Positions 2,872 through 15,806 of a DNA stretch of 26,254 nucleotides are shown piece by piece. This DNA comes from a virus. The position numbers were made by a program, and so were the translations under genes. Under the pieces are notes generated by a model. That model was not told where the DNA came from and did not search any database. It worked only from the letters and a program-made list of their open reading frames with translations. Where the stretch lies: positions 1 to 26,254 of the IMG/VR virus record IMGVR_UViG_3300036884_000118. One strand, written 5' to 3'. Numbering within the stretch: the stretch's first letter is position 1; each line of letters starts with the position of its first letter.

Positions 2872-4074
2872 TCAGGAACTTGGGGCCTCTGCCGAGATGG
2901 CGAAGACCGGATGGATGCCTCCGGAGCCGTAGAAGTTGCGGCTCGTCTCCCATTCAAATGATCCGGCCCGCGGGTTGGTCGCGTCAAACTGCTGCGGGGC
3001 ATTCCGAAGCGCAGCTCCGTAGAACCGGGCATTCACGGAGTTGTTCACGGCCGCGATCACGAAGTCGTTGATTGTTCGCTCCACGCCGCGTCCAGCCCCG
3101 GCACCCTGCATGTCCAGGTATTTGCTCAGCTGGTCTTCGTTCATCCCGGCCGGCTGGCCGCTGATGGTGGCCGTGAGGCCCGTGATCTTGCGGGAGAGGA
3201 CGCCGAGTTGATCCGTCTCGAACGGGGCCAACCCCAGGTTGAACCGGGCCGTCACCGGACCCCGGCACTGGAAGCTGCTGAACGGAGCCGCCGAGCCCCA
3301 GCTCAGCACGTACTCGTTCGTGGGAATGATGGCCTTGTTCGCCCCGAGGTTGCTCCAGGATCCCGTGCCGATGGTGAAGAAGCTCCCGCTTGCGCTCCAC
3401 TCCACCCCGTTCTGCCGGAAGCACTCAAAGGTGAGGGAGCCGTACAGTGTCCCGATGGCACTGAACACCAGGTCGGGCATCCCGACGACGGCTGCCACGG
3501 GGAAGGTGATCGTGTTGCCCATCATGGTGGTGATGGTCAGCGGCTCCTGCTCCACGATCTGGCTGTTGCCCGTCCCCGCCGTGGTGAGGGCAACCGGGCC
3601 GGTGAGCGCCAGGGCGGCATTTAGCGTCGTATAGAAGCTGATCGTGTTCGCGTCGTTCACCCCAACATAGTAGATCGTCCCCAGCGCTAGGGATCCGGGC
3701 AGCGTGCCGAAGCTTCCCACGCTCACGGGAGTCCCGGGGCGCAGACCGTGGCCCGTCACCGTGATCGTGCTGGCCCCGGTGTTAACGTTGGCGCTGGCCC
3801 AGGCCGTGACCGGCGTGACGAGCTGGCCGAACTTCGGGTTGGTCCACGGATAGAGGATCGCCGCGAGCGCGTCCGTGAACTCGCCGACGGGCATCAGCGT
3901 GATGCGGGCCGTGGGCTGCTTGGCCCGGCGGTCGATTGGACCGTAGGCACTGGTCTCGATGGCAAAGTCGTCCTGCATAAAGGCGGCTCCGAGCGTGCGG
4001 GCAGAAAGGAAGGTCTGTCCCTTGTATTTGATCTCGGCCGGGCCTTCGATGAATTGGGCAAGATTGAAGCTCAT
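2872..4074 (-). CDS. Putative major tail (tube) protein with inserted beta domain
   Basis: A 400-residue protein starting MSFNLAQFIEGPAEIKYKG. The N-terminus (AEIKYKGQTFLSAR, then a TARITLMPVGEFTDAL segment) and the C-terminus (ARFNLGLAPFETDQLGVLSRKITG) resemble tail-tube-type proteins, which polymerise into the tube through which DNA passes. Residues about 98-172 look like a separate inserted domain with the pattern GHGLRPGTPVSVG...LPGSLALGTIYYVG, seen in many surface and phage beta domains. The gene lies directly after the tail-completion-like gene, as tube genes often do. The assignment rests on position and general features, not a diagnostic motif. Another virion protein is the main alternative. 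Confidence 0.55.
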   Translation of the reverse strand: MSFNLAQFIEGPAEIKYKGQTFLSARTLGAAFMQDDFAIETSAYGPIDRRAKQPTARITLMPVGEFTDALAAILYPWTNPKFGQLVTPVTAWASANVNTGASTITVTGHGLRPGTPVSVGSFGTLPGSLALGTIYYVGVNDANTISFYTTLNAALALTGPVALTTAGTGNSQIVEQEPLTITTMMGNTITFPVAAVVGMPDLVFSAIGTLYGSLTFECFRQNGVEWSASGSFFTIGTGSWSNLGANKAIIPTNEYVLSWGSAAPFSSFQCRGPVTARFNLGLAPFETDQLGVLSRKITGLTATISGQPAGMNEDQLSKYLDMQGAGAGRGVERTINDFVIAAVNNSVNARFYGAALRNAPQQFDATNPRAGSFEWETSRNFYGSGGIHPVFAISAEAPSS

Positions 4075-4115: not shown

Positions 4116-4886
4116 TCAAGAAGTGGCGATCGTGTCCGCCGGCGTGATGTCAGCGTTGGTAATGTTGCTGGGCTGGAAGCCAGCCGCGAGGTTGTCCCCG
4201 AGCACGCGCAGCGTGACGTTGCTGCTGGGAACGGGGACGAAGAAGGGGCCGGTATAGCGCAGGGCTGTGGAGCTCGACAGCTGCGTGGTGGGGGCAGGAT
4301 AGGTACCGTCCAGCGTGTACCAGAGGTCAGCCCCGGCCGTGGGACTGGCCAGCGTGATATTCAGACCGGGAGGGCTGATCTGCACGTCATAGGTGATCAC
4401 TGGCTGGGTCACCTTGGGCAGCTTGTTGAGCACGCCCAGCCTCCGGAAATAACAAATATAACTCACTCGGCCGGTTTTCACCGTCACCGGCTCCGCCCCA
4501 TCGAACACCAGCGTTCCACCCCGACCGAGTGAGAGATAGTGGTCCACGTCGATCAACGTCTCCGTGATCGCCTCTGCGGTCAGCCCTGCCCCGCTCGATC
4601 CGAGAGCGGCCGGTGGCCAGCAGATGACCTGCACGCCGTAGCGCGCAAAGTACCTAGGCCCCGGGGCATCCTTCATCTCCGGGAGCAGCTTGGGCATGAG
4701 CACGATGATCACGGCCCCGCTCTTCCCGTTGGCCGGGTTGAACTCCGCGAGGGCCGTCTCCACGTCGCTCTCGATGACTCCCCGGCGCTGCAGCAGAATC
4801 GCCACCTGCGGGAAACAGCACGCCAGCCGGGCAAAGATGTCCTCCTGGTCCAGTTCAACTTCTGATTTGGTTAGGTCAATGCTCAT
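4116..4886 (-). CDS. Tail completion/terminator-like protein with chitobiase C-terminal-like domain
   Basis: A 256-residue protein whose start overlaps the upstream gpG-like gene by ATGA (4883-4886). The N-terminal half (DIFARLACCFPQVAILLQRR, then SGAVIIVLMPKLLPE) has the size and position of tail terminator or completion proteins that cap the tail and join it to the head. Residues about 165-245 look like a beta-sandwich of the chitobiase/beta-hexosaminidase C-terminal type, with the pattern ITLASPTAGADLWYTLDGTYP, RYTGPF and a final VTLRVLGDN strand. Such domains decorate many secreted and phage proteins and are often linked to carbohydrate contact. The fusion of the two parts is unusual. The call for the N-terminal half is mostly positional. 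Confidence 0.6.
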   Translation of the reverse strand: MSIDLTKSEVELDQEDIFARLACCFPQVAILLQRRGVIESDVETALAEFNPANGKSGAVIIVLMPKLLPEMKDAPGPRYFARYGVQVICWPPAALGSSGAGLTAEAITETLIDVDHYLSLGRGGTLVFDGAEPVTVKTGRVSYICYFRRLGVLNKLPKVTQPVITYDVQISPPGLNITLASPTAGADLWYTLDGTYPAPTTQLSSSTALRYTGPFFVPVPSSNVTLRVLGDNLAAGFQPSNITNADITPADTIATS

Positions 4887-5602
4887 GGTACGAAAGTTTC
4901 AATCCATCCCCCTTGGCTCGCCAGCGCCTCCACGTATTGGTCAACGGCCGTCTGGAGGCCGTCATTCAACTCCTCGTCCGTCGGGAGCACGTTCTCATTG
5001 GCCCCGATCGTGGCGTGCTCCACCAGCCAGTACATGATCACCTGGCCACCGAAGACTCCGGCCACGGCAGCCTTCTCCCCGAGTGCCTTGTTGTACCGCT
5101 TGGAGGCTCCCTTGACGGCCGGGACGATCTCCTCCTTGATCACCAGAGCGTATGGCCCCTTGCGACCCCAGGCGATCTCCAGCTGCCCCGCGAAGTCACT
5201 GGCCGAGTGCCCGTAGGCTTCAGCGCAAGCCGGAATGGTGAGGTATTTCGTGGGCTGCCCGGTCGCGAAGCTGATTCCCTTCCCGGCTTCTACGGTCCCG
5301 CCAAAGTAGTGGAGCCCGATTCCCACCTGCGCGATGGAGATCGTGAACCCGTCCTGCTCCACGTGGAAGCTCGTCCCCTTAGCTGCGTTCCCATAATAGT
5401 TGCTCTTCGGCGCCCCATAGACGTTCTGGGTCGAGGCGTTCAGGTCCTGGAGGTTGTCCCGGAAGGTGTCCCGTGCTGCTCGGGCCAGGACGGGATTCAG
5501 GTGCCGCAGGCCCTCCTCCTCCGAGCGGCCGCCCAGCGCATAGAGCGCACCCTGGGCCTTCAGGAGCATGTCTTGGTCAATCTCCAGGTCGGCGCTGATC
5601 AT
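4883..5602 (-). CDS. Mu gpG-like virion morphogenesis protein
   Basis: A 239-residue protein whose ATG at 5602 overlaps the stop of the gpF-like gene by 4 nt. Family features of the gpG/tail-completion group are visible: a helical N-terminus (HLNPVLARAARDTFRDNLQ), a region starting NVYGAPKSNYYGNAA, and then LHYFGGTVEAGK followed by TKYLTIPA. The last two match the HGGT...KYLxIP pattern of this family. In Mu, gpG follows gpF in the operon, and the same order is kept here. The C-terminal 100 residues (LVIKEEIVPAVKG onward) extend beyond the core. The protein probably acts in joining tail to head. Confidence 0.75.
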   Translation of the reverse strand: MISADLEIDQDMLLKAQGALYALGGRSEEEGLRHLNPVLARAARDTFRDNLQDLNASTQNVYGAPKSNYYGNAAKGTSFHVEQDGFTISIAQVGIGLHYFGGTVEAGKGISFATGQPTKYLTIPACAEAYGHSASDFAGQLEIAWGRKGPYALVIKEEIVPAVKGASKRYNKALGEKAAVAGVFGGQVIMYWLVEHATIGANENVLPTDEELNDGLQTAVDQYVEALASQGGWIETFVP

Positions 5603-6393
5603 TCGGCTCCTTTCCCGGTGTACCGGAGCACCCCGGACTTGTCGAATCGGGCCAGGTTCCCGAGGAAGTCCAGCAGCGTGGACTTCAGGTTGGCATCCCG
5701 GAGGTCGAGATCCTGCTTCAGATCGTCGTTGATCCCCCGGTCCTCTGGTTCTATCCTCTGGCCCGGCTCGATCACGCCCAGGCGAACAGCATCACTCCTG
5801 GATACGTCCCTGACGTCCATCCCGGAGTTGAACGCGAACGGCGGGAAGGGATTCCCCAGGCCGTCCTCGAAGAGATCCGGGCTGCCGAGCTCGTCCCAGA
5901 TGTCATCATCCTTGGCCGCGACCATCCGGCCGTCCACCAGCTCCCCGCCGGCTTCCTCCCAGCGGTCCGGCCAGTCCCTGGGTTTCCGGGGGACGTTCAC
6001 CCGGACCAGCTCCTGCGCCGGCCAGGTGTCGAGGATCCCCTGATCCTGCCCCTGGGTGAAGCTCCCGTAGCCTTCCGCGAGCTGGACGTTGGTGTCCAGG
6101 ATCAGATTGAGCCGGGCATCAGAGAGGTTTCCGAACCCGAGCTCGTCCGCCACGCGCTTGAGCATGGACCGCTCCGCATCCCGCGTCGAGTTCCCGGCCA
6201 GGATCTCGTCTATGGAGTTTCCCATCCGGTCGAGGGCCTTCGCACTCTCCACAGTGCTCGACCAAAACATCCGCTCCTTCAACTCCGCGGGGAGCACGGA
6301 GAGCAGCTTGGTGCGCAGCTCCGTCGGGATCAGCATCCGGGCCAGCCGGCTGTTGACCGCATCCTCGAATGGAACTGGAGCCGGGAAGATCAT
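5599..6393 (-). CDS. Mu gpF-like minor head protein (phage head morphogenesis)
   Basis: The frame stays open upstream to 6510, but the ATG at 6393 overlaps the stop of the glycosyltransferase gene by ATGA, as at every neighbouring junction, so I choose that start (264 residues). The core SPDLFEDGLGNPFPPFAF followed by NSGMDVRDVSRSDAV (residues 171-202) resembles the conserved region of SPP1 gp7/Mu gpF minor head proteins, which sit at the portal vertex. The usual place for this gene is next to the portal. Here it lies about 10 kb downstream, after the capsid genes and the sugar cassette, but still just before a gpG-like gene. The N-terminal 90 residues are charged and helical. Confidence 0.65.
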   Translation of the reverse strand: MIFPAPVPFEDAVNSRLARMLIPTELRTKLLSVLPAELKERMFWSSTVESAKALDRMGNSIDEILAGNSTRDAERSMLKRVADELGFGNLSDARLNLILDTNVQLAEGYGSFTQGQDQGILDTWPAQELVRVNVPRKPRDWPDRWEEAGGELVDGRMVAAKDDDIWDELGSPDLFEDGLGNPFPPFAFNSGMDVRDVSRSDAVRLGVIEPGQRIEPEDRGINDDLKQDLDLRDANLKSTLLDFLGNLARFDKSGVLRYTGKGAE

Positions 6394-7916
6394 GGCGCTG
6401 CGGGGATGAGCTGTCCACCTCGAACGGTAAAAGTCCGAATCGCCTTCGGCTCCGGCGCTGGTGCTACCGAAACGGCTGTGGCCGCTGAAGGCACGGGCAC
6501 CCCGCTCCACTTGGCGAGGTAACGCTGGGCATTGACGTCGAGAAGCTGCTGGTATTCTGGCTGCTTGGCGAAGCTGCAGTTGGCCGCATCATGGTCCACC
6601 ACGCACTCCCCGCAGATCCCCAGCCGCCCGCCGGCCCGCTTGATCCGGTAGCAGTAGTCATTATCCTCCCACATGCCGCCCTCATACAGCTCGTCAAACG
6701 GCCCGATGGTCTCCAGCGTTCTCCGGGGCAGGTACACGCAGATGAACGGGAATCGCTCCGGCTCCTCCACGCAACCCCGGCGATCGAGCTTCTGCAGGGG
6801 CAGGCTACTGCGGCCATGGACGACAGCACTCACGGCTGCCCAGTCCCGGCTGGCCTGCTGCAGCGCGCCGAAGCCACCCCGACTGGAGAGGAAGGCATCA
6901 TCATTGCAGAGCAGAACATCGTTGCGGCCGGCAGCGCTGAGTGCCAGGTTGGCATTAACCGCGAACGTGAACGGCTCCGGACCGGTGATCCAGCGCACTC
7001 CCTGGACTCTGGCGCGGTCCGCCTCGGAGATCCGGTCGGCCAGCACCACGATGTCCAGCGTGGGCCCTTGCTGCCGCCGCATCGCGGCCACGCAACGCAC
7101 CACGTTCTCGATCTGCCGGCTCAGGATCGCCACGGTGTAAGGCCGGAGCGGAACGGCCAAGGCCGGGATCACCTCGCTCTGCTTGAATTGGAGTCTGGCC
7201 CGAGTGGTCCTGGCTTGCACCAGGGGATCCTCATAACTGCCCCAGTGGCGGCGAAGATTCTCCGCGGAGAGCCGGCGGCGGCGCAGCCGGAGCCGATTGG
7301 TGAGCAGCTCCACTGGTCCCAGCCACTTGTAGTGGAGCAGCAGGGTGCGAGGAGTCTGGGAGACCATACGAGTCATGTCCAGATGGCTGCCGTTTTTCAG
7401 CAGCGCGTTGGCCCGGTGCGCCCCGCCGTCAAAGTTCATCTCCTCCACCAGGGAGGGCTGGAAAAGCACCGGCTTGGAGTAGATGGGATGGTTGGGCATG
7501 CCCCGGCGCACCTGCTCGTAAATCTGCCCGTCCGTGGTGGGGAACGTCTCGCTGAACATGTCCCAGCCCTCCGCCAGGATCACGGGCTGCCGCTGGGCCG
7601 CGTAGGCTGCCAGAGTGGCCTCCACTCCGCAGGGGAAATAGGCCAGCTCGTCCGCATCCATCGTGAGCACCCAGTCGGCGTCCGTTCCCTTCCAGCAGGA
7701 GCCTTTGAGCTTCCTGGCCAGATCATCATTGAGCTCGTTCCCCGTGTCCCAATCGAGAACGTGCGCCCCTCCCCTCCGGGCCACGTCCCGAGTTCCGTCC
7801 GTGCTCCGGCCGTCATGCACATAAATGTTTCCCGAGGCGAACGTGTTGTAGTGCCGCAGCGCGTAGGCCAGGATGGCCTCCTCGTTATATGCCAGGATGT
7901 GGACCTCAATCTTCAT
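6390..7916 (-). CDS. Two-domain family 2-type glycosyltransferase
   Basis: A 508-residue protein carrying two glycosyltransferase-A folds in tandem. Domain 1 (about 1-240) starts KIEVHILAYNEEAIL, has VHDGRSTDGTRDVA and an acidic MDADE motif at 86-90 for metal and nucleotide-sugar binding. Domain 2 (about 258-470) starts YTVAILSRQIENVVRCV, has FAVNANLAL followed by LLCNDDAFL (Asp339-Asp340), then FDELYEGGMWEDNDYCYRIK and a late VVDHDAANCSF. That order is typical of GT2 enzymes. It probably transfers two sugars or builds a disaccharide. The last 30 residues are Ala/Pro-rich. Its start overlaps the GT8-like gene and its stop overlaps the gpF-like gene, both by ATGA. The acceptor is unknown: a virion protein or the host envelope are both possible. 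Confidence 0.85.
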   Translation of the reverse strand: MKIEVHILAYNEEAILAYALRHYNTFASGNIYVHDGRSTDGTRDVARRGGAHVLDWDTGNELNDDLARKLKGSCWKGTDADWVLTMDADELAYFPCGVEATLAAYAAQRQPVILAEGWDMFSETFPTTDGQIYEQVRRGMPNHPIYSKPVLFQPSLVEEMNFDGGAHRANALLKNGSHLDMTRMVSQTPRTLLLHYKWLGPVELLTNRLRLRRRRLSAENLRRHWGSYEDPLVQARTTRARLQFKQSEVIPALAVPLRPYTVAILSRQIENVVRCVAAMRRQQGPTLDIVVLADRISEADRARVQGVRWITGPEPFTFAVNANLALSAAGRNDVLLCNDDAFLSSRGGFGALQQASRDWAAVSAVVHGRSSLPLQKLDRRGCVEEPERFPFICVYLPRRTLETIGPFDELYEGGMWEDNDYCYRIKRAGGRLGICGECVVDHDAANCSFAKQPEYQQLLDVNAQRYLAKWSGVPVPSAATAVSVAPAPEPKAIRTFTVRGGQLIPAAP

Positions 7917-8434
7917 GAGATGGCCTGTTCCCTCTCCGGCCGCAAGCCGTTGACTTTCATGCAGCCCGCAAAGTCCGCCCTGGCCACCCGGTAGGCCATG
8001 GGATTCATCACGGCCGTTGAGAAGTGGTTATGATCCTTCCCGCCCCCGAGCATGCAGAGGCGGTGCCACTCCATCAGGAAGAGCCGGGCCGCATCCGTGT
8101 CCGCCAAAAAGAAGGCCCCGGCAGTGAGCCGGTTGACGTGCGTTTTGACCGGGTTGTCCGCCACGGCCACGTCCCAGGGCTGCTCCGGGATCCGGGGAAC
8201 ACGCAAGAGCAACGTGTCAATGTCGAGGTAAAGCAGGATGCCCTGAACTTTTTGGCGAAGCTGAAGCAGTGCCCCTGGCTTGAGCCGCGTGTTGGCCGTC
8301 CAATCCCACCGGCTCTCCATCCTCTCCACGACCACGGAAAGATTGAGATTCTCAGCCACGGAGACGAACTGCACCACGCAGTCCTCATACTCCGGGGTGT
8401 AGAAGCCAACGACGGTGAAGCGTTCGGAGTTCAT
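7913..8434 (-). CDS. GT8-like nucleotide-diphospho-sugar transferase
   Basis: A 173-residue protein. The ATG at 8434 overlaps the methyltransferase stop by ATGA and is preferred over an in-frame ATG at 8491, which would add 19 residues of low-complexity shadow sequence. Residues 65-80 read GILLYLDIDTLLLRVP, the strand and DxD motif of GT-A enzymes. They are followed by WDVAVADNP and TAGAFFLADTDAARLFL, where GT8/DUF-type nucleotide-diphospho-sugar transferases have their conserved acceptor-side segment. An HNHFST segment follows near residue 135. The protein is shorter than most GT8 enzymes but ends naturally. It is the third enzyme of the four-gene cassette. Confidence 0.7.
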   Translation of the reverse strand: MNSERFTVVGFYTPEYEDCVVQFVSVAENLNLSVVVERMESRWDWTANTRLKPGALLQLRQKVQGILLYLDIDTLLLRVPRIPEQPWDVAVADNPVKTHVNRLTAGAFFLADTDAARLFLMEWHRLCMLGGGKDHNHFSTAVMNPMAYRVARADFAGCMKVNGLRPEREQAIS

Positions 8435-8985
8435 CGATGGATGAGGACCAGCAGGCCGTTGTTGTTTTGCGCGTGGCTGAAGACCTTCCATTGGTCCCCC
8501 TCGGAACTGCCGAGAAACTGAAGGATGCCGACCAGGAGGCCCGGCCCTCCGTCCTGACCCAGCACGCCGAAGGACATCGTGTCGTGAAAGACCAGGTAGC
8601 GTCGCACCAGCGGGGCGAAACGCAGCTCAGAGAGCACCTGCGTGGCCGTGTGCAGCGTGTCGATGAAAAGCATGTCCGTGTGACCGATCATGGGAATCAA
8701 GTTGGTGTCCGCGAGGACGAATCCCCAACTGACGTTCTCCGGAAGATAGGGAACGGGGTTGAGCTCCGAGGGTGCGAAGTCATAGGACACCAGTGTTCCT
8801 TTCCTCCCGTCGCTCACCGCCTTCTGACTCAGCCCCTCCAGCAGCGCCACCGTGGAGTTTCCTCCCCGCACACCGAACTCCGTCACGGTCTCGCAGGAGG
8901 CCGCCAGTTTGGCCAGCGTCACCAGGTGCTGGTTGATGTCGCTCGTCGCGGCTCTCCGTTGCTCAAATGCGTCGTGGAGGGTCAT
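8431..8985 (-). CDS. Class I SAM-dependent methyltransferase (Methyltransf_24 / cephalosporin hydroxylase-like)
   Basis: A 184-residue protein starting at the ATG (8985) that overlaps the GT-B stop by ATGA. An upstream in-frame ATG at 9078 would add unconvincing sequence. Motif I, TEFGVRGGNSTVALLEGL (residues 35-52), is the SAM-binding glycine loop. LVSYDF (65-70) supplies the acidic residue after strand 2. DMLFIDTLHTATQVLSEL (104-121) and LVFHDT (131-136) match the strand 4/5 motifs of the small-molecule and sugar O-methyltransferases related to cephalosporin hydroxylases. Given its glycosyltransferase neighbours, methylation of a sugar, or of the glycan acceptor, is the most economical role. 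This is inferred from context. Confidence 0.75.
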   Translation of the reverse strand: MTLHDAFEQRRAATSDINQHLVTLAKLAASCETVTEFGVRGGNSTVALLEGLSQKAVSDGRKGTLVSYDFAPSELNPVPYLPENVSWGFVLADTNLIPMIGHTDMLFIDTLHTATQVLSELRFAPLVRRYLVFHDTMSFGVLGQDGGPGLLVGILQFLGSSEGDQWKVFSHAQNNNGLLVLIHR

Positions 8986-9977
8986 GGGTTGAGGTGGGGC
9001 TGGAGCTTGCTCATGGGCGGACTGTTCGCGGCCATCCAGCGCAGCGGGATCCCGGCCTCGATCTCCGGGAGCGTCCACTGCGCGTAGGCCACCCGGTTGA
9101 GGTGGGCTTGGACCATCGCCCGTGCCCTGGGGTCACTGGAGTTCCCACAACTCCCGATCTGGAAGTAGTGCGCCGCCGGGGCAGAGTCCACCGGGAGGCC
9201 GGCCAGGATCGCCTGGAGGCCGGCTGTGGAATTGTACGTCACCACCACCCCGGCCCCAGCAAGGGCTTGCTCCAGGGATTCCCGCTGCGGACTCCGGATC
9301 TCCAGGCCCTGGACGCAGGGTGCACTCTGACCGGGGAGTTGCGGGTGCGCCCGAAATCTCAGGGAATAGCCTTCCGCCTGCCAGAATCCGGCCCGATCCG
9401 TGAGCCAGTTCCGCAGCTGCTGCTCCGTGAGCTCATGCTGGCCGTCGTTGGGCACCTGGCCGAGGAGCAGGGCGACCCTGGGCCGCTCCACCCCCATTGG
9501 CCCCAACTTCACTCCCAGGGCCTGGAAACGGTCATCCGGGAGAGGCCCTTCAGGGATCTGGCAAGGCCCGCCCACCCCGATCTGCGTGTATCCCTCCCGA
9601 TCCATGCCGTCCCGTGCCCGATTGATGTACCCGAGGTCCATGCTCAGGAGCTGGATGCCGCGAGATCGGAGGATGCCCCGTGCCCAGGCTTCCGGGGAAT
9701 GATTCCCGGCTGTGAACGCGAAAAGGATGCCTGGCCGCTGGGTGAGGGAGAGCAGCGTGGGGCGGGTGCTATCCATCGCTGCCACCACCCCTCCACCCAG
9801 AGCCTTGATCCCGGTGACCATGGCCTGGATCCTGACCTTGCTCCCATAGTTCCCCAGCTGGATCGCGGTCCACGGGGCATCCGGGGATTTATCAGCCTGG
9901 ATGACCTCCATAGCCGACTGCTTGATCTCCGGGTCTCCGGGACCAAAGATCCTCTTGACTGAGAAAGACGAGCTCAT
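8982..9977 (-). CDS. GT-B-type glycosyltransferase, capsule-polysaccharide-transferase-like
   Basis: A 331-residue protein. The ATG at 9977 overlaps the DUF1320-like gene's stop by ATGA; the frame extends to 10094 but without support. The N-terminal half has Rossmann-like stretches (WTAIQLGNYGSKVRIQAMVTG, GGGVVAAMDS, GILFAFTAGN). The C-terminal half has VALLLGQVPNDGQ (168-180), LRFRAHPQ (206-213) and VVVTYNSTAGLQAILAGLPV (244-263). The last is the sugar-nucleotide loop typical of capsule/Kdo-type GT-B transferases. RVAYAQWTLPEIEAG (295-309) is also typical of phage members of this group. It is first in the cassette, so it may start or extend the glycan. The donor sugar cannot be told from the sequence. 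Confidence 0.7.
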   Translation of the reverse strand: MSSSFSVKRIFGPGDPEIKQSAMEVIQADKSPDAPWTAIQLGNYGSKVRIQAMVTGIKALGGGVVAAMDSTRPTLLSLTQRPGILFAFTAGNHSPEAWARGILRSRGIQLLSMDLGYINRARDGMDREGYTQIGVGGPCQIPEGPLPDDRFQALGVKLGPMGVERPRVALLLGQVPNDGQHELTEQQLRNWLTDRAGFWQAEGYSLRFRAHPQLPGQSAPCVQGLEIRSPQRESLEQALAGAGVVVTYNSTAGLQAILAGLPVDSAPAAHYFQIGSCGNSSDPRARAMVQAHLNRVAYAQWTLPEIEAGIPLRWMAANSPPMSKLQPHLNP

Positions 9978-10429
9978 AGGCCCCTCATTTGCTCCCGGCC
10001 CGCCCGGGCTTCGGATGACGTGACCAAGCTCGTGTAAGGGCCGCTGATCACCTGCTGGGTTACGGCCAGGGGCTGCTCGATCCTCATCTCGCATGAAGCG
10101 ATCTGGTCGAGGGTCCTCATCGCCCCGTCATACTCCTTCTTGCGGTCTGCATTCATCACCCCGGCCGGCACCCGGTCGCACCCATAGTAGGCTCCCAGGA
10201 TGAGCGTGACCCGGCGCAGCTCCTGCGGGATTTTGTAGCCGAGGGTCTGGTCCCCGAGGACGTTCTGGAGGCACCCGGCCACCTTGCCCCGCACGAACTG
10301 GATGGCATCATTCATCGCATTGGGCAACGGATCCGTCTGCCCGGCTTGCGTCGCGGCCGTCTGGATGGCCGTGATCTCCGGCCCCGTCAGGACTTCCCGG
10401 AAATCCGTTTCTGTTACGGTGATCCACAT
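9974..10429 (-). CDS. DUF1320 / Mu gp36-like head-tail connector protein
   Basis: A 151-residue protein starting MWITVTETDFREVLTGPE. The layout matches the gp36 family: an N-terminal helix, an acidic helical segment (LPNAMNDAIQFVRGKVAG), a Pro-led helix (IPQELRRVTLILGAYYGCDRVP) and a final helix RKKEYDGAMRTLDQIASCEM. These proteins act at the head-tail joint. The gene follows the major capsid gene after a hairpin-rich gap, as in Mu-like phages. Its stop begins the run of ATGA overlaps that ties the glycosyltransferases to the morphogenesis genes. Confidence 0.6.
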   Translation of the reverse strand: MWITVTETDFREVLTGPEITAIQTAATQAGQTDPLPNAMNDAIQFVRGKVAGCLQNVLGDQTLGYKIPQELRRVTLILGAYYGCDRVPAGVMNADRKKEYDGAMRTLDQIASCEMRIEQPLAVTQQVISGPYTSLVTSSEARAGREQMRGL

Positions 10430-10562: not shown

Positions 10563-11642
10563 TCAGCTCGTCGCGTCCGTCACCCGGTAATTCACGATGC
10601 CGAGGGATGACGTGAGGACGATGTTGGAATAATGCTCCACGGAGATTTCCACAACCTTAGCGGAGATCTGCCGCATGTACACGTTGAGGTCCAGTGCTCC
10701 GGACGGCCGGGAGGTCGTCGCGCCGTCAGTGCCCGTGAAGACTTGCGGAGGCGGGCTCACGAACCGCTTGATGTTCGACGGGTCCTCCACGTCCTGGCCC
10801 TGCATGGCCGTGAACATGAGGATGCCCTTGCCCAGCATCTGGCTCTTGGTGTTCTTCGTCACCTGGAATCGCTCCTTGCTGACGTACACCTCGTCCACTC
10901 CGAGCAGCGGGGCGAGTTGCAGCGGGGTCAGGTTGGAGGTGAGGAATCGGGAGGCGTTGGCCCCGGTGCGCATTGCCAGGAAGCGTTGCGCCCAGGCCGA
11001 GTGCCCGAAGGCCACGCGGTTGAACTGGAAGCCTTGGCTGTCCGCCGAGATGATCCCGGCGGAAACGATGTCGCCGTCCGGATCCGAGTTGCTGTCCCAC
11101 ACCTTGTCCACGACCGTCGCGGCCCCGGTGAGGAGCGTGATGGCACGGAAGAGTTCATTGCGGAGCAGGCGGCGGATGAGCTTCGCCACGAAGCGGTTCT
11201 CCCAGCCCGGCATCTGCACCGGTACCTGGTCCAGGTCGATCAGCATCATCAAGCCCTTGTTCAGGGTCTTGCCGGTCTGGTCGATCCCGGTGTACTCCAC
11301 GCGCTTGAAGTTCGCCCCGATGGCGCGAACGTCATCCGACTCCTGATAGAACTCTTCCGCGTTGCTCCACTTCTTCCATTCGAAGAGCCGGCCGGGGACG
11401 ATCACCTTGGGCGCGTAGAACTCCAGCGCCGCCTCGATGTTGTTCGGGTCCTGATAGCCCACGGCGTAGGTCGTCAGCGGCTCGCTAAAGAACGTCTCAC
11501 CGAAGCGAGAGTCATTCGCCAAGCCGTAGATTTCGCCCGGATGGATGTCCTGCTCACTGGCCGGGAGCGGCCGGGGAGCCTGAAATCCGAGTTGGTTGGC
11601 CAGGGACATAAGCTCCGAGGCCGAGATGTGATTTTGTTTCAT
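10563..11642 (-). CDS. Major capsid protein
   Basis: A 359-residue protein. I choose the ATG at 11642 (MKQNHISASELMSLANQLGF); the frame is open to 11735, but the added part is the decoration gene read in another frame. The length, the lack of signal or membrane segments, and the position directly after protease/scaffold and decoration-like genes all suit a HK97-fold shell protein. Visible features include a long middle helix region (ENRFVAKLIRRLLRNELFRAI), AFGHSAWAQRFLAM, and VDEVYVSKERFQVTKNTKSQ followed by GKGILMFTAMQ, as in Mu-like capsid proteins where a late strand carries the spine. The leader has no Shine-Dalgarno sequence but contains AACGAC, a motif also seen in the right arm. A hairpin follows the stop. 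Confidence 0.75.
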   Translation of the reverse strand: MKQNHISASELMSLANQLGFQAPRPLPASEQDIHPGEIYGLANDSRFGETFFSEPLTTYAVGYQDPNNIEAALEFYAPKVIVPGRLFEWKKWSNAEEFYQESDDVRAIGANFKRVEYTGIDQTGKTLNKGLMMLIDLDQVPVQMPGWENRFVAKLIRRLLRNELFRAITLLTGAATVVDKVWDSNSDPDGDIVSAGIISADSQGFQFNRVAFGHSAWAQRFLAMRTGANASRFLTSNLTPLQLAPLLGVDEVYVSKERFQVTKNTKSQMLGKGILMFTAMQGQDVEDPSNIKRFVSPPPQVFTGTDGATTSRPSGALDLNVYMRQISAKVVEISVEHYSNIVLTSSLGIVNYRVTDATS

Positions 11643-11701: not shown

Positions 11702-12244
11702 TCAAGAGGTGACCGTGACCTCGTAAGGCGCGCACGGGGCGAACTCAAAGTCGTCATACTGCGCCGTGTTGACCTGGTTGAGGGAGCGGCCGACCACCCA
11801 ATGAGAACCGGCAGTGGCCGGAATGGCGACGACGAAGCCGGCATTGACGGGAGACGGGACGAGGAGGCTGAGCGGAGGGATGACCCCGTCCGCCAGCGCG
11901 ATCGCAGTCCCGGCCCCGAGGCCGAGGATCCGAGCCGCAATGTAATCACCGGCAGCCATGGACTGATCCGTGAGGATGTACAGGGGCACGAGGCCCGCCG
12001 TGCATTGGCGAATGTAGCCAGGGCCACCCACGCCTTGCGCGGCGAGCATGAACCGGCCGTTGTAATTAGGATCCGTCGTGGGCTGCCCCACCGGAATCAC
12101 CCAGGGGAGATCAGCGCGGAGGGACAGGACGCCGTCGATGTGCGTGCCCGGCCCGTAATTCGCCAGGAGCACGGCGCTCGGCGAGAAGAGCTGTTCAAGG
12201 AAGTTGAACAGGCTGCTGAGATAGAACTTGAGAAGAGCTTTCAT
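11702..12244 (-). CDS. Possible capsid decoration or head accessory protein
   Basis: A 180-residue protein starting MKALLKFYLSSLFNF, between the protease/scaffold and the major capsid gene. That is the usual slot for a decoration or head-stabilising protein. The central sequence (PLYILTDQSMAAGDYIAARI, then TAIALADGVIPPLSLLV, ending HWVVGRSLN) follows the small beta-barrel pattern of decoration proteins such as DUF2190 members. No motif is decisive. The hydrophobic N-terminal 20 residues could be a helix packing on the capsid or, less likely, a membrane segment. The assignment rests on order and fold-like pattern only. Confidence 0.5.
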   Translation of the reverse strand: MKALLKFYLSSLFNFLEQLFSPSAVLLANYGPGTHIDGVLSLRADLPWVIPVGQPTTDPNYNGRFMLAAQGVGGPGYIRQCTAGLVPLYILTDQSMAAGDYIAARILGLGAGTAIALADGVIPPLSLLVPSPVNAGFVVAIPATAGSHWVVGRSLNQVNTAQYDDFEFAPCAPYEVTVTS

Positions 12245-12313: not shown

Positions 12314-13057
12314 CTAGCGGCGGCGGTCCGAGGTGTGGGTCTTGATCTCCGGGTGCTTCATGCCCTTGAACAGCTCCACGTTCTCCGGGTCGGCCTGGAA
12401 GTTGGCGAAGGCCACGTCGTAGGTCTCCTTCTTGGCTTCCATGCGGGCCTTGACGCCGTCCGAGATCTTGGTGAACTTGGTGGCCCCGACCTGGGACGCG
12501 GTGCGCTCCATGTTCGGCAGCCCCATCGTGGTGGAGGAGGTCTTCATCACGGGTTTCTTCTCCGTGATCTTCTTGGCTTCCGCCTCGAAGGCCGCGAGAT
12601 CCCCGTTGCAGAGGCTGACCACGAGGGCATCCTTCTCTCCGGGGAGGATCCGGCCGGTCACTACGGCCGCGTTGGCGAGCCGCGTGGCGGAGGCTTTGCG
12701 CTCCGCTGCCGCCTCTTCCTTGGCCGCCTTGACCTCGGCCTGCGCCTTGGTTTTTTCCGCGTCGGCCTGAATCTTTTCGTTCTTGGCGTCCAGGATCTTC
12801 TGGTCCGCTTCCTGCTTGGTGTTGGCCAGAGCCGCGCTATTGGCGATCACGGTCGTGACGGCCTCCGGCGTCGTGAGCTTGGCGTTCGTGAGCACGGTGA
12901 GGAGCGCGGCGTTGGCCGCTTCGCTCGTGCCCTTGGTCTTGATGCCGGCGATAGCCGTTTGCACGGAGTTCGCCAACTCGGCGTCCCCGACGTTCTGGGC
13001 CACGTTCTGACCGAGAGCCGCGAGGATCTGAATGAGCAGATCACGTTCTTTGTTCAT
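12314..13057 (-). other. Possible internally started scaffold (Mu Z-like)
   Basis: An in-frame ATG at 13057 (residue 874, MNKERDLLIQILAALG) would give a separate 247-residue product made only of the coiled-coil scaffold region. The bases before it, CAATCCAAACCCAAATCAG, are A/C-rich like the leaders of real starts in this phage, and they encode an Asn/Pro linker. In Mu the scaffold Z is made from an internal start of the protease gene I; the same arrangement is inferred here, not shown. Confidence 0.4.
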
Positions 13058-15676
13058 CTGATTTGGGTTTGGATTGTTGACTGGTTGTCCGTCGCCCGCC
13101 CAGTTCATGAGAGAGGGGCCGGGAATATTGGCCCGATTCACAAGACCGACGGACAACAGCTTGTACGGAGAAACGATTGGCCGGCCATCCTCGGCGGATT
13201 CCCCGGTGGGCCGGCAGTTCCAGTAGGGGCTGAGGCGGTCGTTGCCGGCCTCCACCACGGTCGCGCCGTTGGCGGTGAGGACGGGCCGGCCGTACAGGCC
13301 GTCATCCCGCGCCTGGAGGTCCGCGTAGGTGCCCTTGGATTCCTTGTCCTTGAAGATGTGCCGCAGGCTGGGCACGTCCGGGTGCCCGTTGTAGATGGGC
13401 AGGCCAGTGACGGCGCGCTTGATCCGGCCCCAGGTGGACTTGAAGTTGGCGACGATGGTGTCGGCTGCCTTGCGGTCGAACCGCTGGACCGTCGGCACCG
13501 GGTTGTCCGGCATCCCGGGGTGCGGATGGTCACCGTACTTGGAGATGATCGCCCAGCCGTCGAACGTGCCGGACTCCATGACGTTGGCGAGGGACTGGTC
13601 GTCGCTCATCGTCGTCCCGAGGACCAGCGCGATGTCCTCCGTCAGCGCCACGTTGGCCAGGCCGAGGATCAAAGCTTCATCGAGCGAGCAGTTGGGCCTG
13701 CCCGGTGCGCCGGTAGCGATTGCCTTATCCAGAAACCGTTTGGACATTGTGTCATGCCACTTCGCTTGGGCACTACGGGATTGATCACTCATATTGTGGA
13801 TCCCCCCGCCGTTCATAGGAGTTTTAAGAGCTGCATTGTGCGCATCCCGGGCATCTTCATGAGCCTTTGATGCTGCGATGTAAGCACCATAACTCTTATC
13901 TTTGTAGGTGGCTGCCCCGGCTTTGGAGGCCCGGGCTGTTGCTTCATCTGCATTGACGGCTGCCTTTATGCTCTCATCTTTCTCTGCTGCTGAGAACTGG
14001 TTTCCGTGAAAATCATGCCCGGCCACGTCCCCGTTCGCCACGATCAGTGCCTCGTCCATAGAACAGTTGGCAGCCTCCATAGCTGCAAGGGCCTTCCGGT
14101 CGATCTTCAGTCGTGCAATCCGACTCTTCACCAGCGCGATATTGCTGGGCTTATCTAATGACTTCAGGCCTTCTCGGTGGTCGGAAATAGCCCGATCTAC
14201 TTCCGCAACGCTTCCCGGAGACCTTGCACCGATGCTGGAATAGTATTTGTCCATCTCTTCCATGGCCGCCTTCCACTGATTCCCTCGGAACGGGTGGCCG
14301 ACCACGTCCCCGTTGCTCAGCTCGGCCGGCAGGACGCAGTTGGCCTCCCCGTTGACCGCGCCGCCCATGTTCTCGTAGATCGTCGTGACCACGGGCCAGT
14401 AGGCGTCGTCGTCTATGGAGTAGGACTTGTTCGCGGCCGTCTTGGCCCGGTCCCAGATATCCTCGTCGGCCACCCAGCTCGCGGGATTCTTCCCGTCCTT
14501 GAATTGCTTGTGCGCCAGCGCGCCGAGGTGGATGGCCCGGCCGGTGAGATGCTCTCCGTGCTTGCCCGGATCTGCGAGGACTGGTTTTTGAAACTGGCTC
14601 TCCGCCAGGCGGCTGGATTGGGTCTGGAGCGCGTCGCCCGCGCCAGGCGTGTTCGGGCTGGCTCCGAGATCCCCATTGGCCTTGTCGTCCTCGTCGTCCG
14701 GGGCCTCGGCTCCGCCCTCGCAGGGGCAGATCGTCCGGGCCTTCTTGACGTGCTCCTGCATCTTGGCGATCTCCGCGTCGTGCTCACCCGGCGTGGGAGC
14801 GTGGAGCGCGGCGTGCAGGTGGGCCTTGGCGGCCTTCGCGTTCAGCTTGAAGGCGTTCTCCCGGGCAGATGGGTGGACCTCCGGTAGCATCGCGTGGGAA
14901 GCCACGTTGGAGGCCGTGTCCGCCCGGCTCTTGGCCTTGGCGAAGCGGGATTCGGACGGGGTGGCCATCGGGGAGTTGGAAAGCAGCGCCTCATCCAGGG
15001 AGACGTTGGCCCAACCGTGCTTTACAAAATCTTTGTACCCACGGGCCTGGTCTCCACGAGCAACAGCAGCGCGGATGTCTCCATCCTTGTCTCCTACAGC
15101 ATCTGCTAGATGCCTTCCACGAGTGGAGTCCAAATATTCGCGGGCCTGAGCATGCGTTCCACCATGTTGTCCGACCAATTCATTCCGCGCAGTGTCATAC
15201 TCCTTGTCTAGCGTCGGATGACGCTCATTGGCATCAGTCGTAAGACGAGGATGCGCATTCGCCCGTGTACCGTAGAATCCCCATTGTGTGTTCTGCGTTG
15301 GGTGCTCTGCTCCAGCCCCGGCAGCCTTCAGGTTGCTTTGCTGGAGTGCCAATGCCCGGTATTGATGATCTTGCGCCATTGACTCATGTGCTGCCTGCTG
15401 CTGCAGGTGCATGCGCTCTCCATCTGTGTTCCCGGTCGCCTTGGCCAACTTCGCCACCTTACCATGCTCATCGGCAGCATCCTCATGAGCCTTGGCAGCA
15501 GCGAAGTGCGTACCAGCCGTATTCTCCTTTACTGCCTGGAATGTAGCCTCGTGCGCCTGGCTGCTCACCCTAAAGGCATGCCCGGCTCCGGAGCTGTACT
15601 GGTTTCCGTGGAACTCGTGGCCGGCGACATCGCCGTTGGCCGCGAGGAGTGATTCATCAAATGATTGTGGTTTCAT
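12314..15676 (-). CDS. Giant Mu gpI-like prohead protease/scaffold fused to GHxFxGNQ modules
   Basis: A 1120-residue protein from the ATG at 15676 (an in-frame ATG at 15745 would add 23 residues). Residues 1-700 are a chain of modules. GHEFHGNQY (19-27), GHPFRGNQW (460-468) and GHDFHGNQF (553-561) each follow an NGDV sequence. SLDEAL-like segments recur near 5-12, 225-232, 538-545 and 663-670. Ala/His/Lys helical stretches lie between. Residues about 399-440 hold PASWVADEDIWDRAK and VVTTIYENMGG, a segment known from phage head proteins. Residues about 703-855 look like the Mu gpI protease (WAIISKYGDHPHPG, LPIYNGHPDVPS, LSPYWNCRPT, LLSVGLVNRANIPG). Residues 874-1120 form a Lys/Ala/Glu coiled coil, as expected for scaffold. 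Capsid maturation is the likely role. Confidence 0.75.
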   Translation of the reverse strand: MKPQSFDESLLAANGDVAGHEFHGNQYSSGAGHAFRVSSQAHEATFQAVKENTAGTHFAAAKAHEDAADEHGKVAKLAKATGNTDGERMHLQQQAAHESMAQDHQYRALALQQSNLKAAGAGAEHPTQNTQWGFYGTRANAHPRLTTDANERHPTLDKEYDTARNELVGQHGGTHAQAREYLDSTRGRHLADAVGDKDGDIRAAVARGDQARGYKDFVKHGWANVSLDEALLSNSPMATPSESRFAKAKSRADTASNVASHAMLPEVHPSARENAFKLNAKAAKAHLHAALHAPTPGEHDAEIAKMQEHVKKARTICPCEGGAEAPDDEDDKANGDLGASPNTPGAGDALQTQSSRLAESQFQKPVLADPGKHGEHLTGRAIHLGALAHKQFKDGKNPASWVADEDIWDRAKTAANKSYSIDDDAYWPVVTTIYENMGGAVNGEANCVLPAELSNGDVVGHPFRGNQWKAAMEEMDKYYSSIGARSPGSVAEVDRAISDHREGLKSLDKPSNIALVKSRIARLKIDRKALAAMEAANCSMDEALIVANGDVAGHDFHGNQFSAAEKDESIKAAVNADEATARASKAGAATYKDKSYGAYIAASKAHEDARDAHNAALKTPMNGGGIHNMSDQSRSAQAKWHDTMSKRFLDKAIATGAPGRPNCSLDEALILGLANVALTEDIALVLGTTMSDDQSLANVMESGTFDGWAIISKYGDHPHPGMPDNPVPTVQRFDRKAADTIVANFKSTWGRIKRAVTGLPIYNGHPDVPSLRHIFKDKESKGTYADLQARDDGLYGRPVLTANGATVVEAGNDRLSPYWNCRPTGESAEDGRPIVSPYKLLSVGLVNRANIPGPSLMNWAGDGQPVNNPNPNQMNKERDLLIQILAALGQNVAQNVGDAELANSVQTAIAGIKTKGTSEAANAALLTVLTNAKLTTPEAVTTVIANSAALANTKQEADQKILDAKNEKIQADAEKTKAQAEVKAAKEEAAAERKASATRLANAAVVTGRILPGEKDALVVSLCNGDLAAFEAEAKKITEKKPVMKTSSTTMGLPNMERTASQVGATKFTKISDGVKARMEAKKETYDVAFANFQADPENVELFKGMKHPEIKTHTSDRRR
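13994..14020 (-). repeat. GHxFxGNQ motif, copy 3
   Basis: Encodes GHDFHGNQF (residues 553-561 of the protease/scaffold protein), preceded by VANGDVA. Confidence 0.85.
14273..14299 (-). repeat. GHxFxGNQ motif, copy 2
   Basis: Encodes GHPFRGNQW (residues 460-468), preceded by SNGDVV. Confidence 0.85.
15596..15622 (-). repeat. GHxFxGNQ motif, copy 1
   Basis: Encodes GHEFHGNQY (residues 19-27), preceded by AANGDVA. Confidence 0.85.
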
Positions 15677-15806
15677 GTTTGGAAATAAGCAGGCAGGTTC
15701 GGTTGTCCGGGCACTGGGCGCACGTGTGGAATCCGTCCCAGTCATCGCAGCCGGCCGGGGCCAGCCGGTCGATCAGGGAGCAGAGGAACTGGAGCAGATG
15801 GGTCAT
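15657..15806 (-). CDS. Small Cys-rich protein
   Basis: A 49-residue reading frame, MTHLLQFLCSLIDRL then APAGCDDWDGFHTCAQCPDN and RTCLLISKHETTII. It fills the gap between the 93-aa gene and the protease/scaffold and overlaps the latter's start by 20 nt. Cysteines 20, 29, 32 and 38 (the last three spaced CxxC and CxxxxxC) could bind a metal. A hydrophobic start is followed by a Cys-rich tail. No family is recognised and no Shine-Dalgarno sequence is visible, so the gene is supported mainly by its fit between neighbours and its composition. Confidence 0.45.
   Translation of the reverse strand: MTHLLQFLCSLIDRLAPAGCDDWDGFHTCAQCPDNRTCLLISKHETTII

Follow-up and report, generated by a model that had tools for sequence, protein, structure and literature searches.

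The locus described here raises the question of why a phage should encode four sugar-modifying enzymes amid its head genes, and on what those enzymes act. It lies in IMG/VR virus record IMGVR_UViG_3300036884_000118, a partial contig whose whole 26,254 bases were analysed and are referred to below as the window, and consists of four intact minus-strand genes (9977–6390) between a gp36-like head-tail connector gene and a minor-head-like gene: a GT-B glycosyltransferase (GT), a methyltransferase (MT), a small GT and a two-domain GT2 enzyme. We consider it likely that these genes form a cassette for O-glycosylation of the virion, with C-terminal Ser tags as the probable acceptors. A methylated glycan made with the virion is the best-supported reading because the cassette is coupled to the head operon and conserved in a sister phage, because its enzymes are soluble, and because its layout resembles that of mycobacteriophage Corndog and several virion proteins share Thr-Ser ends. 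New in this locus are the prediction of a GT-B of the 3-deoxy-D-manno-oct-2-ulosonic acid (Kdo) transferase type, the Thr-Ser ends on virion proteins, and a Corndog-like layout with non-homologous enzymes.

The cassette genes begin at an ATG overlapping the preceding stop codon, and all five junctions in the window (gp36/GT-B, GT-B/MT, MT/small GT, small GT/GT2 and GT2/minor-head) are ATGA stop-start overlaps. The next two head-operon junctions are also ATGA, the run extending from gp36 through the second gene past the cassette; among the corresponding cassette junctions of the related phage L006, one is GTGA. In GC content the cassette is in line with its surroundings. A preliminary description of this DNA had placed four enzymes between the connector and the next virion gene, and their open reading frames are all intact, with no sign of the pseudogenisation it had raised as an objection. 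The four enzymes appear soluble, being without a membrane segment (maximum 19-residue hydropathy, KD19, 1.41), and the cassette gave no family match above cut-off to the parts of a gtr serotype-conversion module (flippase, bactoprenol GT or multi-transmembrane type-specific GT).

Scanning IMG/VR with the window major capsid protein (MCP) recovered L006, whose MCP is 67% identical and which carries the same four-gene set, in the same order and at the same site. Identities between the two phages are 44% for GT-B, 50% for the small GT, 48% for the GT2 N-terminal domain and 23% for the MT, which is of the same Pfam type; at the C-terminal end of the GT2 enzyme the window has a second GT2 domain and L006 a DUF7796-like one. 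In a portal, MCP and protease tree the window phage and L006 group as sisters (support 1.0), and L009, where the site is empty, is their neighbour. Divergence of the three closer enzymes (44–50%) resembles that of neighbouring head and tail genes (43–65%) and, because the two phages are also sisters, the cassette appears to have been long retained. The wider group comprises 35 viral loci that conserve the minor-head gene and 44 loci found via the portal. Between gp36 and the minor-head gene, L008, L009, L033 and others have nothing inserted, and a D12 DNA adenine methylase occupies this slot in L007 (11539–12366), L011 (8066–8890), L042 (8541–9329), L095 (15461–16291) and L107 (14929–15756). 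These comparisons mark the cassette as an accessory block, retained over long divergence at a site of the head operon that has repeatedly received insertions. The concern that all related phages might lack it at this site is answered by L006, and with the same four-gene block kept at the same site, chance is excluded as an explanation. The 44 portal loci come from an alignment search of GTDB genomes and are overwhelmingly from Verrucomicrobiota, and the methylase-bearing relatives include proviruses in Verrucomicrobiota genomes; the host of the window phage would accordingly be placed, at phylum level, in the Verrucomicrobiota. Scanned with the MCP instead of the portal, GTDB genomes gave no prophage.

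The virion proteins encoded around the cassette share an unusual C-terminus. In the window, where all features named here lie on the minus strand, Thr-Ser ends the decoration-like protein (11702–12244, ...EVTVTS), the MCP (10563–11642, ...RVTDATS, with the Thr-Ser codons at 10566–10571), the tail-terminator-like protein (4116–4886, ...TIATS) and a short tail protein (2491–2868, ...GGIFTS), and the probable major tail (tube) protein (2872–4074, ...EAPSS) ends in Ser-Ser; all five are candidate acceptors. In L006 the decoration, MCP, tail-terminator-like and tail tube proteins end in Thr-Ser and the short tail protein in Phe-Ser. The residues preceding Thr-Ser differ between the two phages. The MCP ends in ...ATS in the window and ...STS in L006, the tail tube in ...PSS and ...PTS, respectively. 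Across ten aligned structural families, 7 of the 20 structural C-termini in the two cassette phages are Thr-Ser, compared with 3/393 in some 50 cassette-lacking relatives (Fisher 2e-8, uncorrected for relatedness). In the MCP, the terminator-like protein and the tail tube (here by one residue) the pair stands on a short extension past the cassette-lacking homologues, and the extra residues of the terminator-like protein occur in the window and L006 only. Both Ser codon families are used (ACC TCT, ACG AGC, ACT TCT, ACC TCG and ACC AGC) and the stop codons vary too, which rules out a signal at the DNA level. The terminal Ser of the small GT in both phages, and of the L006 GT-B, was discounted as a tag, since a TCATGA overlap constrains the last codon. 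The short tail gene and its neighbour at 1825–2487 are adjacent paralogues, a duplication also present in L006, and only the shorter one has the Thr-Ser end.

A parallel exists in an unrelated group. Most descriptions of phage-made virion glycosylation concern mycobacteriophages (Che8, Corndog and Myrna), where it shields particles from antibodies; in the primary report on these glycans, Freeman (2023), they are reportedly O-linked at the C terminus. In five GT-bearing actinophages, the MCP and tail tube end in TGS/DGS (Che8), VGS/GDS (Dylan), AGS/PAS (Fryberger), DES/DES (Soul22) and AGS/AGS (phiGD23-1). In these five, listed as L024, L122, L123, L124 and L128, the last two residues pair as GS/GS, GS/DS, GS/AS, ES/ES and GS/GS, so that the residue before Ser is identical or alike in MCP and tail protein. 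Terminal Ser is thus found in 10/10 of these proteins, against 0/4 in Brevibacterium AGM4 (TAV/AGV) and Streptomyces phiSASD1 (LPA/FGA). The latter two were taken as controls, their genera not being named among those with Che8-type GT hits, and the AGM4 MCP is 52% identical to that of Che8; Giles and Jace, with individual GT status unchecked, are loose controls only. A shared C-terminal Ser goes with phage GTs in this group; among phages with GTs beside head genes the pattern is not universal.

The GT-B enzyme (8982–9977, 331 residues) gave no hidden Markov model match above cut-off, and a PDB sequence search with the window and L006 pair returned nothing at E ≤ 1. Its AlphaFold2 model (pLDDT 78, ten aligned sequences) bears out the GT-B-like label given to it earlier: in Foldseek WbbB, KpsC and KrkA account for each of the top 22 PDB matches, with E down to 2.4e-9 and probability 1.00 to WbbB, and TMq is 0.41–0.50 against these retaining β-Kdo transferases, which share a modified GT-B fold. 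Two motifs have been defined in those enzymes, QXXXD, which holds the nucleophilic Asp, and (K/R)XHP, which binds cytidine monophosphate (CMP) (PMC10148158, PMC12887879). The window GT-B carries Q174VPND178 and R209AHP212, with equivalents in L006, L015, L016 and MW202713, and its Q-to-H spacing is near-identical to that of KrkA (37 and 38, respectively). A general-base Glu was not located in the window enzyme, its position differing among the known Kdo-transferase families. Because of the predicted fold and both motifs, we predict that GT-B is a retaining transferase of CMP-Kdo or a related ulosonate, akin to families GT99 (WbbB), GT107 (KpsC) and GT140 (KrkA). It is only 12–15% identical to these, however, and whereas the known enzymes make lipopolysaccharide (LPS) or capsule, a capsid acceptor would be new for this type. 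The CMP-Kdo synthetase gene kdsB scores above the NCBIfam cut-off in all eight of the Verrucomicrobiota genomes with related prophages that were scanned for it. A GT-B profile gave one weak match in 388 Verrucomicrobiota genomes, and cassette-bearing prophages were not found there.

The MT (8431–8985, 184 residues) is of the S-adenosylmethionine (SAM)-dependent Methyltransf_24 type and falls 0.9 bit under the Pfam cut-off (2.7e-5), while its L006 counterpart at the equivalent place passes (1.5e-15); the preliminary description had named a SAM methyltransferase, and the enzyme is probably a sugar O-methyltransferase. The double-domain GT2 enzyme of that description is confirmed (6390–7916, 508 residues): PF13704 (Glyco_tranf_2_4) is matched at 3.8e-10 with 40.6 bits against a cut-off of 27.5, and the conserved N-terminal GT2 domain is followed in the window by a second one at the variable C-terminus. 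PDB sequence searches with the MT and GT2 gave weak matches only. For the small GT (7913–8434, 173 residues) the earlier GT8-like label holds only in part: there is a DxD motif (YLDIDTLL), and the topology in a low-confidence model (pLDDT 54) is GT-A-like, with best matches to GT34, GT6 and GT-A proteins, not GT8. The best PDB match of that model is 2p72, a PBCV-1 capsid glycosyltransferase (E 2.7e-3), and the viral matches include GT34 proteins; the likeness to the PBCV-1 enzyme is suggestive only. Searched against PDB sequences, the small-GT pair had no match at E ≤ 1, and a small-GT profile matched only L006 and one 23% homologue among viral contigs, nothing in annotated phages and nothing in eight host genomes.

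From this material we infer a scheme for the enzymatic activities, the sugar identity, the order of transfer, the attachment site and the biological benefit. The cassette would share transcription and translation with the head genes, so that the enzymes are on hand as capsid and tail proteins appear. Using host nucleotide sugars, the GT-A, GT2 and GT-B enzymes would assemble a short glycan on virion proteins, GT-B probably contributing Kdo or a similar CMP-activated ulosonic acid, and the MT methylating one of the sugars. The likeliest attachment would be the hydroxyl of the C-terminal Ser in the Thr-Ser tag of capsid, decoration and several tail proteins. The two phages have kept the inner enzymes (GT-B, small GT and GT2 N-terminal domain) but have a different MT and GT2 C-terminal domain, so the outer glycan probably varies from phage to phage. 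As to benefit, we can only speculate on shielding, altered adhesion or stability. A bolder version seems to us possible, though we stop short of favouring it: a tag-directed, whole-virion system outside the phages of Actinobacteria, in which a single cassette embedded in the operon would attach a methylated Kdo-type (CMP-ulosonate) glycan to at least five different virion proteins, each at its C-terminal Ser, the Thr-Ser tails having been convergently acquired and the outer enzymes swapped as in serotype variation.

Several points weigh against virion glycosylation at the tags. The reading is built from the genes of a metagenomic contig, and the window enzymes show no recognisable homology to those of mycobacteriophages: BLAST and hhalign comparison with Che8 108–110 and Dylan 32–35 yielded only a 25-residue GT2 motif match (E about 0.003–0.015). 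The cassette occurs in two sister phages only, making the Thr-Ser contrast one of a single lineage against the rest, and the pattern had been noticed ahead of the test. A Ser at the very end is frequent in the MCP family anyway (29/51 relatives), so that only the Thr-Ser extension is distinctive, and L015, L018, L064 and MW202713, with GTs in or beside their head operons, have no shared MCP and tail Ser terminus. These last observations would be expected if the virion is indeed glycosylated but the Thr-Ser ends are unrelated, a quirk of the lineage or an assembly signal, and the glycan lies elsewhere, on the Ig-like tail domain, a fibre or internal Ser/Thr residues. We regard this as rather unlikely, given that the pair is written in varied codons on several non-homologous proteins, is kept though the preceding residues diverge, and is paralleled in the GT-bearing actinophages. 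The suggestion in the preliminary description that a glycan is made with the virion, perhaps on capsid or fibre, is partly supported by coupling, conservation in L006 and the Thr-Ser ends, and is amended as regards the target, capsid, decoration and tail proteins being likelier than a fibre.

Other targets fit the locus less well. Envelope glycans are the usual substrates of Kdo transferases and GT2 enzymes, and phage GTs often alter the host envelope, so the cassette might instead modify LPS or capsule, for example blocking superinfection or freeing progeny from debris. Such a role seems improbable to us: the enzymes are soluble and come without a gtr-type membrane GT or flippase, their expression with the head genes would be too late for superinfection control, the head-operon position is kept in both sister phages, and the C-terminal Thr-Ser pattern would be left unexplained. 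That the same slot carries a DNA methylase in five relatives also counts against our reading and raises the thought that the cassette modifies phage DNA, yielding glycosylated or hypermodified bases. However, the window MT is of the Methyltransf_24 type and not a DNA methylase, and no hydroxymethylase, AGT/BGT or base-hypermodification family was found among the window proteins scanned, although the contig is partial. DNA seems to us a very improbable substrate. Glycosylation of the virion with its C-terminal Ser as acceptor makes a concrete prediction that can be checked by mass spectrometry, namely a Thr-Ser C-terminal tag bearing a Kdo-type sugar.

The minus-strand late operon reads TerS, TerL, portal, a long protease/scaffold-like protein, decoration-like protein, MCP, gp36-like connector, the four enzymes, the minor-head-like protein and tail genes, the order from TerS to gp36 being backed by PHROG matches and synteny. 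Upstream, the connector gene (9974–10429; PHROG 195, 1.6e-5; PF07030, weak) overlaps GT-B. Downstream, the gene at 5599–6393 overlaps GT2 and was earlier labelled gpF-like minor head; its match to PHROG 220 is weak (E 0.006), yet dozens of relatives keep the gene in this position. The MCP matches PHROG 1005 and has a C-terminal extension relative to its relatives, and the decoration-like family matches PHROG 673 (head scaffolding), 122 (head decoration) and 4366 (head fiber). The tail-terminator-like protein has an Ig-like (CHB_HEX) C-terminal domain (PF13290) and is named by position; the probable tail tube was assigned from position and alignment, its PHROG matches being weak and off-target. 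The protease/scaffold-like protein (12314–15745) has an N-terminal extension of ~690 residues, in which a motif resembling NGDVxGHxFHGNQ occurs three times; the extension is partially matched in L006 only and is possibly a prohead-targeted internal cargo or a head-targeting signal.

GT and MT genes also lie directly beside MCP, connector or terminase genes in several unrelated environmental phages (L002:257–1015; L064:7863–9178; L015:9809–10615; L019:5809–7327; L018:3875–8634; L067; L068). In the head-operon glycan cluster of L018, a 703-residue protein (5730–7841) reads by eye as radical-SAM-like with an intein-like interruption. From these cases, GTs within head operons seem to be commoner than published isolates would imply. 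The preliminary description had held their presence within the structural gene order to be unusual, a view contradicted by these phages and by Corndog, which has an O-methyltransferase (gp35), two GTs (gp36 and gp37) and an N-acetylglucosaminyltransferase (gp38) between portal and protease (PMC4351075). A common C-terminal Ser in capsid and tail proteins, together with GTs, could serve as a sequence rule for spotting glycosylated phages.

Among known systems, the chlorovirus PBCV-1 offers virus-encoded enzymes for a major capsid glycan (e.g. PDB 2p72), although it is a eukaryotic algal virus with N-glycans. Podophage MW202713 carries beside TerL a tibC-like GT, a methyltransferase, a GT-B homologue with QVPQD and RPHP, and a pyridoxal phosphate enzyme; its MT and GT beside packaging genes recall the window, but the cluster sits at the terminase edge, with other partners and without the shared C-terminal Ser. 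For Che8 and Corndog, glycosylation of capsid and tail-tube proteins by GTs of the phage itself has been reported (PMC12363180, PMC11256854). Che8 (cluster F1) likewise combines phage GTs and a methyltransferase domain (108–110) with Ser-terminated MCP and tail tube, but its GT genes lie at the right end of the genome, outside the head operon, and are non-homologous to those of the window. The closest parallel is the Corndog group (cluster O, gp35–38; Dylan 32–35), with one O-methyltransferase and three GTs in the virion structural operon, Ser at the end of the Dylan MCP and tail tube, and Corndog itself listed among the phages with glycosylated virion proteins. All four Corndog enzymes were detected in infected cells, whereas twice-banded virions contained none of them; peptides from the capsid were unexpectedly few (PMC4351075). 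The two differ in site (portal/protease in the Corndog group, connector/minor head in the window), in phage and host lineages, and in the Kdo-type GT-B, which is not recognised in the Corndog-group cassette. By analogy, the window cassette appears to work like a Corndog-type system without being a member of it, and the same layout and C-terminal Ser pattern, built with non-homologous enzymes in Verrucomicrobiota-linked phages, which need not face animal immunity, suggest that such systems have had more than one origin.

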